From positions 1 to 48,686 of the forward strand of contig DATHUY010000137.1 in the NCBI GenBank assembly GCA_035461765.1: 48,686 nucleotides of DNA. The letters run 5' to 3'. This document shows positions 2,942-22,033 of the stretch, piece after piece. The DNA is from Longimicrobiales bacterium. Lineage in GTDB: Bacteria; Gemmatimonadota; Gemmatimonadetes; Longimicrobiales; RSA9. The position numbers and the translations under genes were made by a program. The number at the start of each line of letters is the position of its first letter. Position 1 is the stretch's first letter. The notes under the pieces are model-generated. The model saw only the letters and a program-made list of their open reading frames with translations. It made no database searches and was not told the DNA's origin.

Positions 2942-3685
2942 ATGAACAAACCTGACTACATCGTCTCCGATATTCACCTGGGCGCCGTGCCGGACGCCAC
3001 GGAACGCCAGTTCGTGACGTTCCTGGAGCGTGTCGGGTCCGATGCCGGTACGCTGCTGATTGCCGGGGACCTGTTCGACTTCTGGTTCGAGTATGGCGAG
3101 GTGATACCCGGCCGGCATTTCCGGACACTGGCTGCGCTCGCCCACCTGGTCGACGCGGGGATGCCGGTGACCATGGCGGGTGGCAACCACGATGCCTGGG
3201 GCGGCCGTTTCCTGACGGAGCATGTCGGTATCACGTATTACACGGAGCCATTCCACACTCAGCTCGGCGGCCGGCGTGCCCTGGTGGCGCATGGCGATGG
3301 GCTGGGCCGCGGCGATTTCAAGTACCGGGCGCTCAAGGCGGTCATTCGCAGCCCTGTGGCGATCGGTGCATTCCGCGCGCTGCACCCCGAGCTCGGGCTG
3401 CGCCTGGCGCGGTCCGTGTCCACGACGCACGCGAAATCGGACGAAGATCTATCGGCGGAAGGGCGTGCGGGGTTCCTGGCGTCGTGGGCGACGGACCAGC
3501 TGAGTGCGGACCCGGACCTGGCGTGGGTGGTGTGCGGCCATTCGCACCTCCCGGTGCTGCACGAGCATGCACCCGGCCGCTGGTATCTGAATGCGGGCGA
3601 CTGGATCTCCCACTACACATACATCGTCGTGGACGAGACGGGCGCTGAGCTGCGCACGTGGGAGACGGCTAAGGGCGTGGTCTGA
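2942..3685 (+). CDS. lpxH: UDP-2,3-diacylglucosamine diphosphatase (LpxH-type calcineurin-like phosphoesterase)
   Basis: Hydrolyses UDP-2,3-diacylglucosamine to lipid X and UMP, the fourth step of lipid A synthesis, at the inner face of the cytoplasmic membrane. The 247-residue product matches the family length (about 240). All metallophosphoesterase motifs are present in order: SDIHLG, GDLFDFWFE, GGNHD, AHGDGLG and GHSHLP. The ATG at 2942 is used because the first motif follows within 10 residues; longer in-frame starts would run through the deoC promoter region. TACCTT lies 8 bases before the ATG and no Shine-Dalgarno is seen, so this too may be leaderless. It is divergent from deoC and its stop is one base from the end of the convergent murI. 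Other Ser/Thr-phosphatase-like uses of the fold are possible, but DLFDFWFE is typical of LpxH. Confidence 0.85.
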   Translation: MNKPDYIVSDIHLGAVPDATERQFVTFLERVGSDAGTLLIAGDLFDFWFEYGEVIPGRHFRTLAALAHLVDAGMPVTMAGGNHDAWGGRFLTEHVGITYYTEPFHTQLGGRRALVAHGDGLGRGDFKYRALKAVIRSPVAIGAFRALHPELGLRLARSVSTTHAKSDEDLSAEGRAGFLASWATDQLSADPDLAWVVCGHSHLPVLHEHAPGRWYLNAGDWISHYTYIVVDETGAELRTWETAKGVV

Positions 3686-3686
3686 C

Positions 3687-4508
3687 TCAGGCGGCGTGAC
3701 CCAGTCCCTCGACGTCGACCTGTTCGACGACACTGATGACGTTGCCAATGAACGTCCGGCCGACATCGCGGAAACGGAGCGGCGCGTCACTGGCGGCGAA
3801 GGTGTGGGCCGGCGGCTGCGGGTCCGTCCGGTGCAGGTCGAAACGGTCGAGCACCTCGGCGACCTCGCGGGCCGTCTCGGCGGCGGAATCGACAAGCTGA
3901 ACGTCGGGTCCCATGACCTCGGCGATGAGCGAACGCAGCATCGGATAGTGCGTGCAGCCCAGGATCAGCACGTCCACATCCATCTCGTGCAGCGGCTTCA
4001 GGTATTCCTCCGCGACCAGACGGGCTGCGCTGTGCGAATACCAGCCTTCCTCGACGATCGGAACGAACAGCGGACACGGCTGGGCGTAGACACGTGCATC
4101 CGGAAGCAGGCGTCGTACGGCGAGGTCGTAGGCTCCTGAGCCGATCGTCCCGGCCGTCCCGATGACTCCGACGCGCGCCGATCTGGTCGCGCTCGCCGCG
4201 GCGCGTGCACCGGGCTCGATAACGCCCGTCACCGGAACCGGCAGCAGATCGGACAGTCGCTGCGCCGCGTGGGCCGTCGCCGTGTTGCACGCGATCACGA
4301 TCATCTTCACGTCGCGCGAGAGCAGGAACGACGCGGACTCCTCCGAGTAGCGCAGGACCGTCGCCGGCGACTTCGGGCCGTACGGCACCCGCGCCGTGTC
4401 GCCGAAGTACACGATCCGCTCATTGGGCAGCCGTTGCAGCAGCTCGCGCACGACGGTGAGGCCGCCGATACCGGAGTCGAAAACGCCGATGGGACGGTCG
4501 TCCGCCAT
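3687..4508 (-). CDS. murI: Glutamate racemase
   Basis: Interconverts L- and D-glutamate to supply D-Glu for peptidoglycan precursors; cytoplasmic, cofactor-independent. The 273-residue product has the N-terminal GVFDSGIGGL motif and both catalytic cysteines, Cys74 in ACNTA and Cys185 in GCTHYP, which deprotonate opposite faces of the substrate. The start codon overlaps the stop of the upstream gene by one base (TGATG), so the two are probably translationally coupled. It is the last gene of the rlpA-lipid kinase-DUF5683-murI run. The family call is secure. Confidence 0.96.
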   Translation of the reverse strand: MADDRPIGVFDSGIGGLTVVRELLQRLPNERIVYFGDTARVPYGPKSPATVLRYSEESASFLLSRDVKMIVIACNTATAHAAQRLSDLLPVPVTGVIEPGARAAASATRSARVGVIGTAGTIGSGAYDLAVRRLLPDARVYAQPCPLFVPIVEEGWYSHSAARLVAEEYLKPLHEMDVDVLILGCTHYPMLRSLIAEVMGPDVQLVDSAAETAREVAEVLDRFDLHRTDPQPPAHTFAASDAPLRFRDVGRTFIGNVISVVEQVDVEGLGHAA

Positions 4509-5129: not shown

Positions 5130-6050
5130 TCAGCTCTTTCGTCCCGATGATGAAGGGGGGCGGCAGATCACGTTCAGGCGGCGCTCGGCGAGGCCGACCT
5201 CGATGTCGCCGCCGGCCTCACGCAACTCTCCGTCCAGCTGGAACGGGAGCGGGCGGCCGTCGTCCACGGACAGCGTGACGCGCGTCCCGCGATGCATCGA
5301 TACCCCGGGCTGCCCGGCATGTGTGCCGCGGAGCACGCGGGCTACCACGCGGACAATGCGATGGAGTGGCAGCTCGCGCACGACACAAGCGTCGAGCACA
5401 CCGTCGTCGGGGCGCGCGCTCGGGCAGACCAGGAAAGCGCCGCCGATCGACGGGCCGTTACAGACCGCCAGGATCATGATGCGCCCCGTGCTCTCCACAC
5501 CGTCGACGACGATCCGAATCGGAAGCGGCCGGTAGTGGGCGAGGGCGCGCATGAGTGCGGTCAGATAGATCAGCATTCCCGGCATCCAGCCGGAACGTCG
5601 CATCTGTCGCACGACTTCGACGTCGATCCCGGTGCCCATGGCGTTCATGAAGTGCTCCAGTCCGCCGTCCCAACGCGCGACACCGACATCGACCGGAGAC
5701 TCACAGCCACCTGCCAGCGTCTCGAAGGCCTGCGCTCGCGTGGCGCTGCCCGGCACCATCTTCACGAAGTCGTTGCCGGTCCCGATGGGGATCAGGCCCA
5801 GTGCCGGCGGCGCCCCGGCCGCGGCCATGAGGCCGTTGGCTACCTCGTGCACGGTCCCATCTCCGCCGGCGGCCACGACCCGGCGGATGCCCGCATCGGC
5901 GGCCGCACGCGCGAGCTCCACGGCGTGGCCCGGACCCTCCGTCTCAACGACGTCGAAGTCCAGGCTCCGGCTCTCCAGCTCCCGCTCGATGACCGTGCGG
6001 AGCCGTCGCCCGGCGCCATGCCGGGCAGCGGGATTCAGGATGATACGCAT
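5130..6050 (-). CDS. YegS/BmrU-family lipid kinase (diacylglycerol kinase catalytic domain)
   Basis: Predicted to phosphorylate a lipid hydroxyl (diacylglycerol, a sphingoid base or similar) using ATP, at the membrane. The 306-residue product has the short DAGK_cat arrangement: an N-terminal ILNPAA strand-turn, the nucleotide-binding AAGGDGTVHEV motif near residue 80 and LIPIGTGNDF near residue 105. The C-terminal all-beta half ends in QLDGE and a basic tail. The length matches YegS-type kinases. It lies between rlpA (39 bases upstream) and the DUF5683 gene (one base downstream). The fold is clear; the lipid substrate cannot be read from sequence. Confidence 0.9.
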   Translation of the reverse strand: MRIILNPAARHGAGRRLRTVIERELESRSLDFDVVETEGPGHAVELARAAADAGIRRVVAAGGDGTVHEVANGLMAAAGAPPALGLIPIGTGNDFVKMVPGSATRAQAFETLAGGCESPVDVGVARWDGGLEHFMNAMGTGIDVEVVRQMRRSGWMPGMLIYLTALMRALAHYRPLPIRIVVDGVESTGRIMILAVCNGPSIGGAFLVCPSARPDDGVLDACVVRELPLHRIVRVVARVLRGTHAGQPGVSMHRGTRVTLSVDDGRPLPFQLDGELREAGGDIEVGLAERRLNVICRPPSSSGRKS

Positions 6051-19242: not shown

Positions 19243-21276
19243 ATGATCCATCGTTCGTTCTTCCCCGGCCTGCTGGCTGCCGGACTTCTGCTTGCGCTCC
19301 CCGGCGCGCCGCTCAGTGCGCAGTCAGGTCAGGCGCCGGAGCGCGCTGTTCGCCGTGACCTGCCGCTGACGAATTCCATACGCAAAGCGCTGGAAGCAGG
19401 CACCCGCGACTCGACGGGGAGGCCAGGTTCGAATTACTGGCAGATGCGAGCGGACTACTCGATCCGGACGCGCCTCGACCCGGCGACATCGACGGTGACG
19501 GGCAGCGAGCGCATCGTGATTCACAACACCAGTCCCGACTCGCTTCCGTTCATCGTGCTGCGGCTGGACCAGAACATCTTCAACGCGAATGTAGCGCGGG
19601 CCGAACGGGTGCCTGAGATCACCGGCGGCATGACCATCACGAGGATGACACTGGATGGCGCGGAGGTCGCAGCCGGCGCGGCGGCCGGCGGACGCGGTGC
19701 AGGCCGACGTGCCGAGCCCCCGACCGTCCCGACCGCCACCGGTCTGGATCAGACGGTCGCTCGCATCATGCTACCCACGCCCGTGGCGCCGGGAGCGCGG
19801 GCGACACTCGATATCGACTGGAGCTTCCGTGTGCCCAGGGTCGAGGGCGGCCGCGGACTGCGCATGGGCGCATGGCCCGACTCTCTGTTCCAGGTCGCGC
19901 AGTGGTATCCGCGTGTGGCGAAATACGACGATCTGCGAGGCTGGGACACGGAGCCGTATCTGGGGCCATCGGAGTTCTACAACAATTTCGGCAGCTTCGA
20001 CGTGTGGATCGACGTTCCCGCCGGCTGGATCGTGGGAGCCACGGGCGTATTGCAGAATCCGGATGAGGTCCTGACGCCGGAAGCGCGCGCGAGGCTGGCG
20101 CGGGTCCTCGAGTCGGACGAGACGATTACGATCGTCGGTGCCGATGAGCGTGGGCCGGGGAATGCCACCGCAGCGGGCACACGGCTGGTATGGCACTTCG
20201 CGGCAGACACGGTGAACGACTTCGCATGGGCAGCATCCGACCACTACATCTGGGATGCAACCCGGGCCACGATCGAGGGACTCGGTCCGATCCCGATCCA
20301 CATGCTCTATACGCCGGGTCGGGCGCAGTCATGGGAGCGCGCGCCCGGTATCCTGCGGCACGCGCTGGAGTTCTATTCCGAGCTGTGGATGCCGTATGCA
20401 TTTCCGCAGCTCACCATGGCGGACGGACCGGAAACCGGCATGGAGTATCCGATGTTCATCATGTCCGGCGTCGGCGCGGCGGACCATGAGGTCGGTCATG
20501 AATGGTGGCCGATGATGGTGGGTACCAACGAGACGTGGTACGGCTTCATGGACGAAGGATTCAACCAGTACATGAACCTCCTCTCCAATGCGCATCGTGC
20601 CGGTCGCGTTCCGTCGCTCGATGGCATGGGCCAGCGGTACGGCTCCATCAGCGGCAACGAGAACGAGGCTCCGCTGATGTGGAACGCGAACTACGGCGGG
20701 AGCATGTATTCGTTCCAGGCGTACTCGAAGGCGCCACTCATGCTCTCGATGCTGGGCGGAATCGTCGGTGACTCGGCGGTGTGGACGGCGATGAGCGACT
20801 ATGCCCACACGTGGCGCTTCAGGCATCCGTCGCCGTGGGACTATGCGTTCTTCATGAACGATGCGCTGGACCGCGACCTGTCCTGGTTCTGGAACTCATG
20901 GCTGTTCACGACGGACGCTGTCGACGGCTCGATCGCAGACGTCCGCACCACGGCCTCCGGCACGACCGTGGTCGTGCGTCAGGATGGCCAGATGCCATCG
21001 CCTGTCGTGTTGCGCGTGGATTTCGCGCCGGACGGTCCGGCGATCCGCATGATGCCGAACAGCACCCGGCTCGGGGAGACGAGCGCGATCGTGACGTGGC
21101 CTGCGGACGTCTGGTTCCCCGGGAGCCGGACGTTCACGGCGAATCTCGATTTCGGCGGCCGACTCATTGAGAGTGTCACGCTCGATCCGTTCGGTCGATT
21201 CCCGGATCGCGATGTCACCGACAACGTGTGGCCGCGGGCCGCGGCTGCGTCGACGGACGCGGCGGGAGTGAGGTAG
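19243..21276 (+). CDS. Secreted M1-family (gluzincin) metallopeptidase
   Basis: Zinc aminopeptidase-like enzyme, exported. The 677-residue product has a signal peptide (LLAAGLLLALPGAPLSAQ, cleavage about residue 27), then an M1-type N-terminal beta domain (about 65-340). The catalytic domain holds the substrate-exopeptidase loop TGMEYP (residues 398-403, in place of GAMEN), zinc motif HEVGHEWW (His415, Glu416, His419) and Glu438 in MDEGFNQY. A beta-rich C-terminal domain ends the protein. GGAGG lies 5 bases before the ATG at 19243; a small hairpin TGCCGG-GAG-CCGGCA sits 24 bases upstream of the start. The gene ends 6 bases before a large inverted-repeat element. The GxMEY variant is common in environmental M1-like proteins. 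Substrate unknown. Confidence 0.9.
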   Translation: MIHRSFFPGLLAAGLLLALPGAPLSAQSGQAPERAVRRDLPLTNSIRKALEAGTRDSTGRPGSNYWQMRADYSIRTRLDPATSTVTGSERIVIHNTSPDSLPFIVLRLDQNIFNANVARAERVPEITGGMTITRMTLDGAEVAAGAAAGGRGAGRRAEPPTVPTATGLDQTVARIMLPTPVAPGARATLDIDWSFRVPRVEGGRGLRMGAWPDSLFQVAQWYPRVAKYDDLRGWDTEPYLGPSEFYNNFGSFDVWIDVPAGWIVGATGVLQNPDEVLTPEARARLARVLESDETITIVGADERGPGNATAAGTRLVWHFAADTVNDFAWAASDHYIWDATRATIEGLGPIPIHMLYTPGRAQSWERAPGILRHALEFYSELWMPYAFPQLTMADGPETGMEYPMFIMSGVGAADHEVGHEWWPMMVGTNETWYGFMDEGFNQYMNLLSNAHRAGRVPSLDGMGQRYGSISGNENEAPLMWNANYGGSMYSFQAYSKAPLMLSMLGGIVGDSAVWTAMSDYAHTWRFRHPSPWDYAFFMNDALDRDLSWFWNSWLFTTDAVDGSIADVRTTASGTTVVVRQDGQMPSPVVLRVDFAPDGPAIRMMPNSTRLGETSAIVTWPADVWFPGSRTFTANLDFGGRLIESVTLDPFGRFPDRDVTDNVWPRAAAASTDAAGVR

Positions 21277-21282
21277 CGGGAG

Positions 21283-21471
21283 TCGGACGCGGAACCCATT
21301 CTGCAGATTGGCCGCGGGCGCCATGGCCGGGTCCCACCGGGACGGCGCCAGCGACCGGATGATCGGGCACCGTACCGCGCCGGCCGGCGGCGCCAGACGA
21401 AGAAGACCGTCCGGCCAGGAGGCGCCGGACGGTCTGGTTGGGTCAATCTGCAGAATGGGTTCCGCGTCCGA
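21283..21471. repeat. 189-bp element bounded by perfect 28-bp inverted repeats
   Basis: Bases 21283-21310 are the exact reverse complement of 21444-21471; both begin or end at the TCGGACGCGG end and contain CTGCAG. The 133-bp interior is GC-rich and holds a second perfect 12-bp hairpin. The element fills almost the whole gap between two convergent stop codons (21276 and 21475). There is no coding capacity and no clear target duplication. It could be a miniature transposable element, a REP-like repeat, or a very long bidirectional terminator. I saw no second copy in this window. Confidence 0.85.
21404..21435. terminator. Perfect 12-bp hairpin inside the inverted-repeat element
   Basis: AGACCGTCCGGC, 8-base loop, GCCGGACGGTCT, followed by GGTTGGGT. 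It would fold in transcripts of either strand and lies between convergent genes, so it is a good bidirectional terminator candidate despite the lack of a clean T-run. Confidence 0.5.
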
Positions 21472-21474
21472 ATG

Positions 21475-21861
21475 CTACCGGGCGCGCGCCGCGACGTCCC
21501 TGATCGCCTGCACCACCGCGGCATAATCGAGCGGTTTCGTGAACACCATGTCATGCGTGGCGGTCGCGTCCTCGACTTCCGTCCGCATGGCATGGGCCGT
21601 CACAGCAACGAACGGGATGTGTCGGATGGCCGGGTCCGAATGGATGGCCACACAGAGCGGTTCTCCACTCTCGAGGGGCAGCGGATGCTCGCCCACGATC
21701 ACGGCAGGGCGGAGCTGCCGGGCAGCCTTCAGGCCGGCAGCGGCCTCGGCGGCCTGTTCCACCTGATATCCGGCGTGCTCGAGGAACGCGGACAGGATGC
21801 GTCTCGCGTCGAGGTCCGGATCAACGACGAGCACCAGCTGAGTGTTCACTGAGCTATTCAT
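21475..21861 (-). CDS. Single-domain receiver protein with Asp-to-Glu phosphoacceptor
   Basis: Receiver (CheY-like) fold with no output domain, 128 residues. The N-terminal acidic site is VVDPD (Asp14, Asp16). The phosphoacceptor strand reads AVIVGEHPLPLESG: in normal receivers this is LLD-x-x-MP-x-x-DG, so Glu58 stands where the phosphorylated Asp should be. The signalling Thr (VAVTAHA) and the Lys (FTKPLD) are kept. Glu can mimic the phosphorylated state, so the protein may be permanently on or respond to something else. The ATG at 21861 is chosen because the receiver fold begins at once; the open frame continues upstream to 21975 without receiver-like sequence. No histidine kinase is adjacent. 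Confidence 0.8.
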   Translation of the reverse strand: MNSSVNTQLVLVVDPDLDARRILSAFLEHAGYQVEQAAEAAAGLKAARQLRPAVIVGEHPLPLESGEPLCVAIHSDPAIRHIPFVAVTAHAMRTEVEDATATHDMVFTKPLDYAAVVQAIRDVAARAR

Positions 21862-22033
21862 GCTGGACGGAAGCGTTCGGAATGGGTGCGCAGCGGCTGC
21901 AGCGTCATTGACGTCAAGTGTAACGACCTCTACGCCGAAATCATGTAGGGAAATTCCTGATTCGGGACGGATCACCGATCAGCCACATTTTGGAACGCGG
22001 CCGCCGACAGTCGCGTGCTCCGGAGCTCGACCG

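Follow-up and report, generated by a model that had tools for sequence, protein, structure and literature searches.

An intergenic inverted-arm doublet of a Longimicrobiales genome, very probably mobile DNA of the REPIN/TIRtron kind, and its resident RAYT-type transposase

An intergenic element in the window, the whole 48.7-kb stretch of DNA analysed here, is very probably non-autonomous mobile DNA of the REPIN/TIRtron kind, consisting of a spacer, kept in length and free in sequence, between two inverted arms, and moved by a resident transposase, RAYT1. The approximately 40 gene-free copies of this element were almost certainly spread by RAYT1, a single-copy resident gene framed by the same repeats. 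A sequence-only reading of the window had offered three possibilities. Two of them, a non-autonomous transposable element and a REP-like unit with a RAYT, prove to be one and the same, and they agree with the many copies, the cognate arms that frame a RAYT-type transposase, the empty sites and the lack of target duplication. An extreme bidirectional terminator, the last possibility, gained no direct support, with no T-run after the hairpin, and a role at mRNA 3′ ends is possible.

The perfect 28-bp arms and the inner hairpin described from the sequence alone are present as claimed (Table 1). The arms are exact reverse complements at 21283–21310 and 21444–21471, or over 31 nt if one mismatch is allowed, and they form the sole perfect inverted repeat of at least 14 bp with a loop of up to 300 in the window. 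Their identity had been called far beyond chance, in keeping with a longest repeat of 11–16 bp in 20 first-order Markov randomisations of the window. The element also fills the gap between two convergent stops, as had been noted, leaving 6 bases to that of the M1-peptidase-like gene and 3 bases to that of the response-regulator gene. Recent origin, which the perfect arms had been taken to suggest, does not hold: the two best relatives of this copy agree with it at 58 of 58 and 57 of 58 positions in the arms but over only 78% of the spacer, so the perfect arms reflect maintenance rather than youth. The inner hairpin is retained in one copy (contig C24) and mutated in another (C48). Rfam returned no family for the element at E up to 5, and the genes that flank it have no match in the other genome of the genus.

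Table 1. Features of the window and of related loci. Window positions have no prefix; C, contig; L, locus stretch.
Feature	Location	Strand	Remark
Whole REPIN-like doublet, long size class	21283..21471	.	
Left arm	21283..21311	+	conserved part from 21284, start CGGACGCGGAACCC
Right arm	21443..21471	-	left-arm sequence; exact over 28 bases (21444-21471)
CATG	21322..21325	.	arm position 39-42; fixed-distance motif, most arms, both repeat families
Inner 12-bp hairpin	21404..21435 (21404-21415/21424-21435)		right half of spacer
Left-arm outer flank, GAGT	21280..21283	+	candidate cleavage/target tetranucleotide
Flanking M1-peptidase-like gene, 690 aa	19204..21276	+	stop 21274-21276
Flanking response-regulator receiver domain gene	21475..21975	-	stop 21475-21477
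RAYT2 locus	L096:1432-2513		arm CGGACCTGGCTTCACTTT...
Family-2 loci, same genome	C115, C83, C56, C18, C12, C148, C62		
Outer-edge tandem repeats	L094 ~2910-2940, L065 ~4340-4395, L060 ~3675-3760, L056 ~5755-5790		
Framed ylxP/DUF503	C41:3488-3969		
Framed RidA-like protein and 208-aa protein without Pfam match	C39:71674-73143		
Framed heavy-metal P-type ATPase	C90:7792-10556		
Framed Amidohydro_3 protein (amidohydrolase)	C101:34886-37055		
Framed RAYT1	C107:99500-100588		

Further copies, which the sequence-only reading had proposed to look for, are numerous. A DNA search of the same genome (4.68 Mb, 171 contigs) with the element gave 116 matches. Another 36 + 36 matches came from a 17-base arm pattern allowing two mismatches at most, compared with 0 for the reversed-pattern control. 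Using an arm sequence model derived from a 36-nt region of 46 arms, at E up to 0.001, we detected at least 104 arms, a count from 150 scored out of 7,560 first-look candidates that may be a lower bound. Eighty-two of these arms pair as 41 inward doublets, 23 of 132–138 bp and 18 of 189–203 bp with none between; among the 22 unpaired arms, at least three have a decayed partner that can be seen by eye (C4, C122 and C149). Most doublet statistics below refer to 34 of the 41 doublets, from 44 fetched stretches plus the window with up to two pattern mismatches per arm; the other seven lie outside the fetched stretches or below the pattern threshold. One region of approximately 24 kb (C56:22959-46457) holds five such doublets and one of a second family described below, far above the average density, and the flanks of the five show no mutual similarity.

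Conservation is concentrated in the arms, which follow a skeleton of approximately 42 nt, CGGACNNGG...GG-N9-CATG, with the outer 28–29 nt paired. CGGAC is present in 46 of 46 aligned arms; CATG stands at arm position 39–42 in 44 of 68 family-1 arms, and other offsets are rare. Arms are 93% alike among copies of the short class (18 aligned) and 89% among those of the long class (14 copies), compared with 45% and 46% for the respective spacers, which are nearly saturated with change, their length kept and their sequence free. The nearest copy of each doublet is only 61–89% alike, making current activity doubtful.

The two arms of a doublet change together. Over 34 doublets, arm partners differ at 39 positions in total, and random re-pairing of arms produced 107.7 ± 7.8 differences, with 0 of 10,000 re-pairings as low as 39. 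In the short-class alignment, the inter-arm helix of 29 pairs is 97.9% paired and its covariation score was reached by 0 of 500 shuffles, which is support and not proof, because related sequences may exceed shuffles without any structure. The predicted fold has z-scores of −9.9 as single-stranded DNA and −10.5 as RNA. It had been argued that a single copy with co-varying arms would speak for an RNA structure and against mobility; the arms do co-vary, but the copies are many. A hairpin within a single arm of this genome showed 70.7% pairing, not above shuffles and with no covariation support, and was therefore set aside as the recognised unit. Arms in the other genome of the genus (G001) often read TTTGCAAA in place of the TCTGCAGA found here, which would fit a within-arm hairpin, and they also read CGGACCTGG beside CGGACGCGG; the arm core has shifted lineage-wide.

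Comparison with G001 revealed sites with and without the element. Both flanks of 8 of the 34 doublet loci were present in approximately 0.44 Mb of G001 sequence. Three of these sites carry a doublet (L066, L073 and L081) and five do not (L055, L061, L062, L071 and L086). The cleanest empty site, L071, has 22 nt in place of 162; empty sites are mostly ragged, and the evidence from L061 and L062 is weak, since one flank has its match only at a distance. The search for target duplications came out negative: whatever the offset tested, no more than 3 of 34 doublets had matches of four bases or longer. The four outer flank bases of 68 arms prefer C-[C/A]-G-[T/C], with T or C in the last place in 63. 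Just outside some arms, the outer edge of the arm recurs in short tandem repeats of GTCGGACGG-like or CCGGCTGGT-like units (Table 1), suggestive of repeated duplication of the border.

Placement of the 34 doublets, based on a crude codon-score gene caller, is mostly intergenic: 30 lie between predicted genes (14 unidirectional, 9 convergent and 7 divergent), two touch an ORF and two are at contig ends. In seven of the nine convergent copies, no more than 11 nt separates the element from either stop, so the position of the window element hugging two stops is a habit of the family. REPs are likewise described as hugging stops in the account of PMC3733652. One short-class copy between two convergent genes (L062:2906-3036) contains a strong inner hairpin, accompanied by an A-run and a T-run (AAAATGCCTCACCGC...GGCGGTGAGGCATTTT), possibly a true terminator inside the spacer.

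A matching transposase, the other object of the proposed search, is encoded by this genome and framed by cognate arms. RAYT1 is a 316-aa ORF within a family-1 arm pair that spans 1,089 bp. It matches Y1_Tnp above the Pfam cut-off and the NCBIfam REP-associated tyrosine transposase (REP_Tyr_transpos) at 65 bits, below the curated cut-off of 80, and carries the motifs HIH at 58–60 and YVHLNP at 117–122. C-terminal similarity to HTH_23/28 is weak; at E 0.0012, HTH_23 falls short of the Pfam cut-off. The only solved relative is 4er8, the TnpA-REP of E. coli; the structure prediction for RAYT1, with a mean pLDDT of 54, is the basis of no reading here.

One further transposase of the genome, RAYT2, is 49% identical to RAYT1, has YVHLNA and thus lacks the NP, and is framed by perfect 22-bp arms with a different core. 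We read eight distinct family-2 loci, namely the RAYT2 locus and seven inward doublets; at least seven is the doublet count, with four further matching places outside it. Both families have the start CGGACNNGG and CATG at 39–42 in common (10 of 16 arms in family 2), and they differ in the core. Judging from these sequences, an arm may combine a recognition skeleton with a specificity core, and RAYT2 would serve the second doublet family.

Both genes are vertical, single-copy genes, as they occupy the same loci in the two genomes of the genus. In G001, RAYT1 (73% identical) has the two neighbours that it has here, presumably the genes of an aldehyde dehydrogenase and of a signal peptidase; likewise, the G001 relative of RAYT2 has the same neighbours as RAYT2, presumably rplI and rsfS. 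The arms that frame RAYT1 in G001 have diverged from each other: a seeded inverted-repeat search of that locus found none, the arm model found the right one and a regular expression the left one. Among 61 genomes of relatives, RAYT1 occurs in three, the genome analysed here, G001 and, as a weak match with a stop, G051. Family-1 arms occur in 2 of 31 genomes, with at least 104 here and 29 in G001, and the arm model found none in the 29 other relatives; the co-occurrence of arms and RAYT1 thus covers two genomes of one genus, G001 being its only other genome. At 1e-10, RAYT relatives were found in 20 of 395 genomes of the phylum, 26–35% identical outside the genus. Of 22 homologue loci in other families of the phylum, 15 are framed by inverted repeats that exceed in length those of all 30 shuffles, and 10 of these 15 repeats carry GGGGTCAG or a near form, which fits the TIRYT motif GGGGWSAS as given in PMC3733652.

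We infer a cycle of recognition, cutting and re-insertion through a single-stranded intermediate. The arms would pair into a long hairpin when the element is single-stranded, as may happen on the lagging-strand template. RAYT1, as a Y1 tyrosine HUH enzyme, would recognise the arms and cut at their outer edge, and the cut strand would re-insert elsewhere without target duplication, mostly in intergenic gaps.

Conserved and co-varying arms around a free spacer, a very stable RNA fold (z −10.5) and the convergent copies within 11 nt of both stops (7 of 9) could also mark an RNA element selected by the host, such as a bidirectional terminator, an mRNA 3′-end stabiliser or an RNase III site, with mobility secondary or past. 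We consider this unlikely: there is no T-run, the 34 copies include 7 between divergent and 14 between unidirectional genes, five of the eight sites that could be read in the sister species have no doublet, and the 29 other relatives have no arms.

The size, the long terminal inverted repeats and the absence of genes would also fit a MITE that descends from an ordinary insertion sequence with a DDE transposase and terminal inverted repeats. Such an origin is highly improbable given that there is no target duplication, that the arms of one copy co-vary, and that the one of five long-range arm pairs to hold a transposase holds one of the Y1/HUH type. No more credible is the idea that the arms are binding sites for a protein unrelated to the transposase, for example a nucleoid or replication protein. 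CGGAC...GG...CATG at fixed positions in two families and the intergenic placement are what it would predict, but each family matches the arms that frame its own transposase, and simple sites would not be expected to come as paired arms around saturated spacers of fixed length. Mobility by way of RAYT1 remains the reading that we favour.

The unpaired arms hold a further regularity. Among the 22, five neighbouring pairs are no more than 3 kb apart and every one faces inward, where random placement predicts 0.29 pairs and 0.07 inward pairs and gave at least four inward pairs in 0 of 20,000 trials; these figures are overstated because such a model ignores insertion preferences. Orientation plus proximity is nevertheless hard to dismiss. 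One pair frames RAYT1 and the others frame resident genes (Table 1), and their arms match each other less well than do those of doublets. In G001, the genes of the ATPase and the amidohydrolase occupy the corresponding places but have no arms. ylxP lies between infB and rbfA, framed in G001 and without arms in G007, G008 and G010, the three family genomes outside the genus that were read, on one strand, out of ten. These three genes are therefore not cargo, since relatives carry them in place without framing, and a cargo-carrying composite element was set aside for them; no syntenic match turned up for the RidA pair.

Why single arms should frame whole genes is a question that these pairs raise. 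We tentatively suggest, as a possibility with less than even chances, that the machinery framing its own transposase also frames resident genes with single arms of approximately 42 nt; if so, the TIRtron layout would be one case of a general outcome. Two half-doublets might insert at different points in one single-stranded stretch, or selection might favour long-range pairing around a transcript.

The system combines traits of several known ones. TIRtrons/TIRYTs, as far as the account of Di Nocera et al. 2013 (PMC3733652) describes them, resemble it in a RAYT-like gene framed by long TIRs and in TIR copies that occur elsewhere as dimers; here, the gene is that of a Y1 HUH transposase and its TIRs are long, repeated in the genome and non-GTAG. 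A C-terminal HTH and a long protein (312–316 aa) are shared with TIRtrons/TIRYTs and with TnpAY1 subclass 2.1 in the description of PMC6006769, and placement in that subclass (RAYT group 1) would follow from domain layout alone. Its transposases are reported there without flanking REP-like sequences, and a link to TIRYTs is given as likely but unconfirmed. GGGGWSAS, which PMC3733652 gives as common in many but not all TIRYT TIRs, is absent here, where CGGACNNGG and CATG appear instead. A further difference is that this genome has two transposases, each with its own doublet family, for which PMC3733652 provides a parallel in S. maltophilia.

The Pseudomonas REPINs and RAYTs, in the outline of Bertels and Rainey 2011 (PMC3116915), likewise form inverted extragenic doublets with ends conserved above a freer spacer, a hairpin fold and a cognate transposase. 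Compared with that description, the element here has no GTAG foot, longer pairing arms (28–29 nt), an unsupported single-arm hairpin and two spacer lengths; in place of a GT[AG]G foot, all 46 aligned arms have CGGAC, and pairing within an arm fails to show a self-palindromic REP. The element is REPIN-like in its working, but we do not file it as a strict REP/REPIN, because the GTAG foot is absent and covariation lends no support to a single-arm hairpin. CGTC-tagged REPs also occur as inverted intergenic dimers, and the arm read outward ends in CGTCCG; those repeats have 8–9 bp stems and no associated transposase in the account of PMC3733652, whereas here the arms frame a transposase gene.

Among the literature matches listed, none relevant joined Gemmatimonadota with RAYT or REP repeats, and doublet families of the TIRYT/TIRtron kind now extend to this phylum. 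One genus holds two such genes, each with its own set of hairpin doublets, alike in skeleton and distinct in core. With two transposases and their own doublet populations in one genome, arm recognition and its specificity are therefore directly testable.
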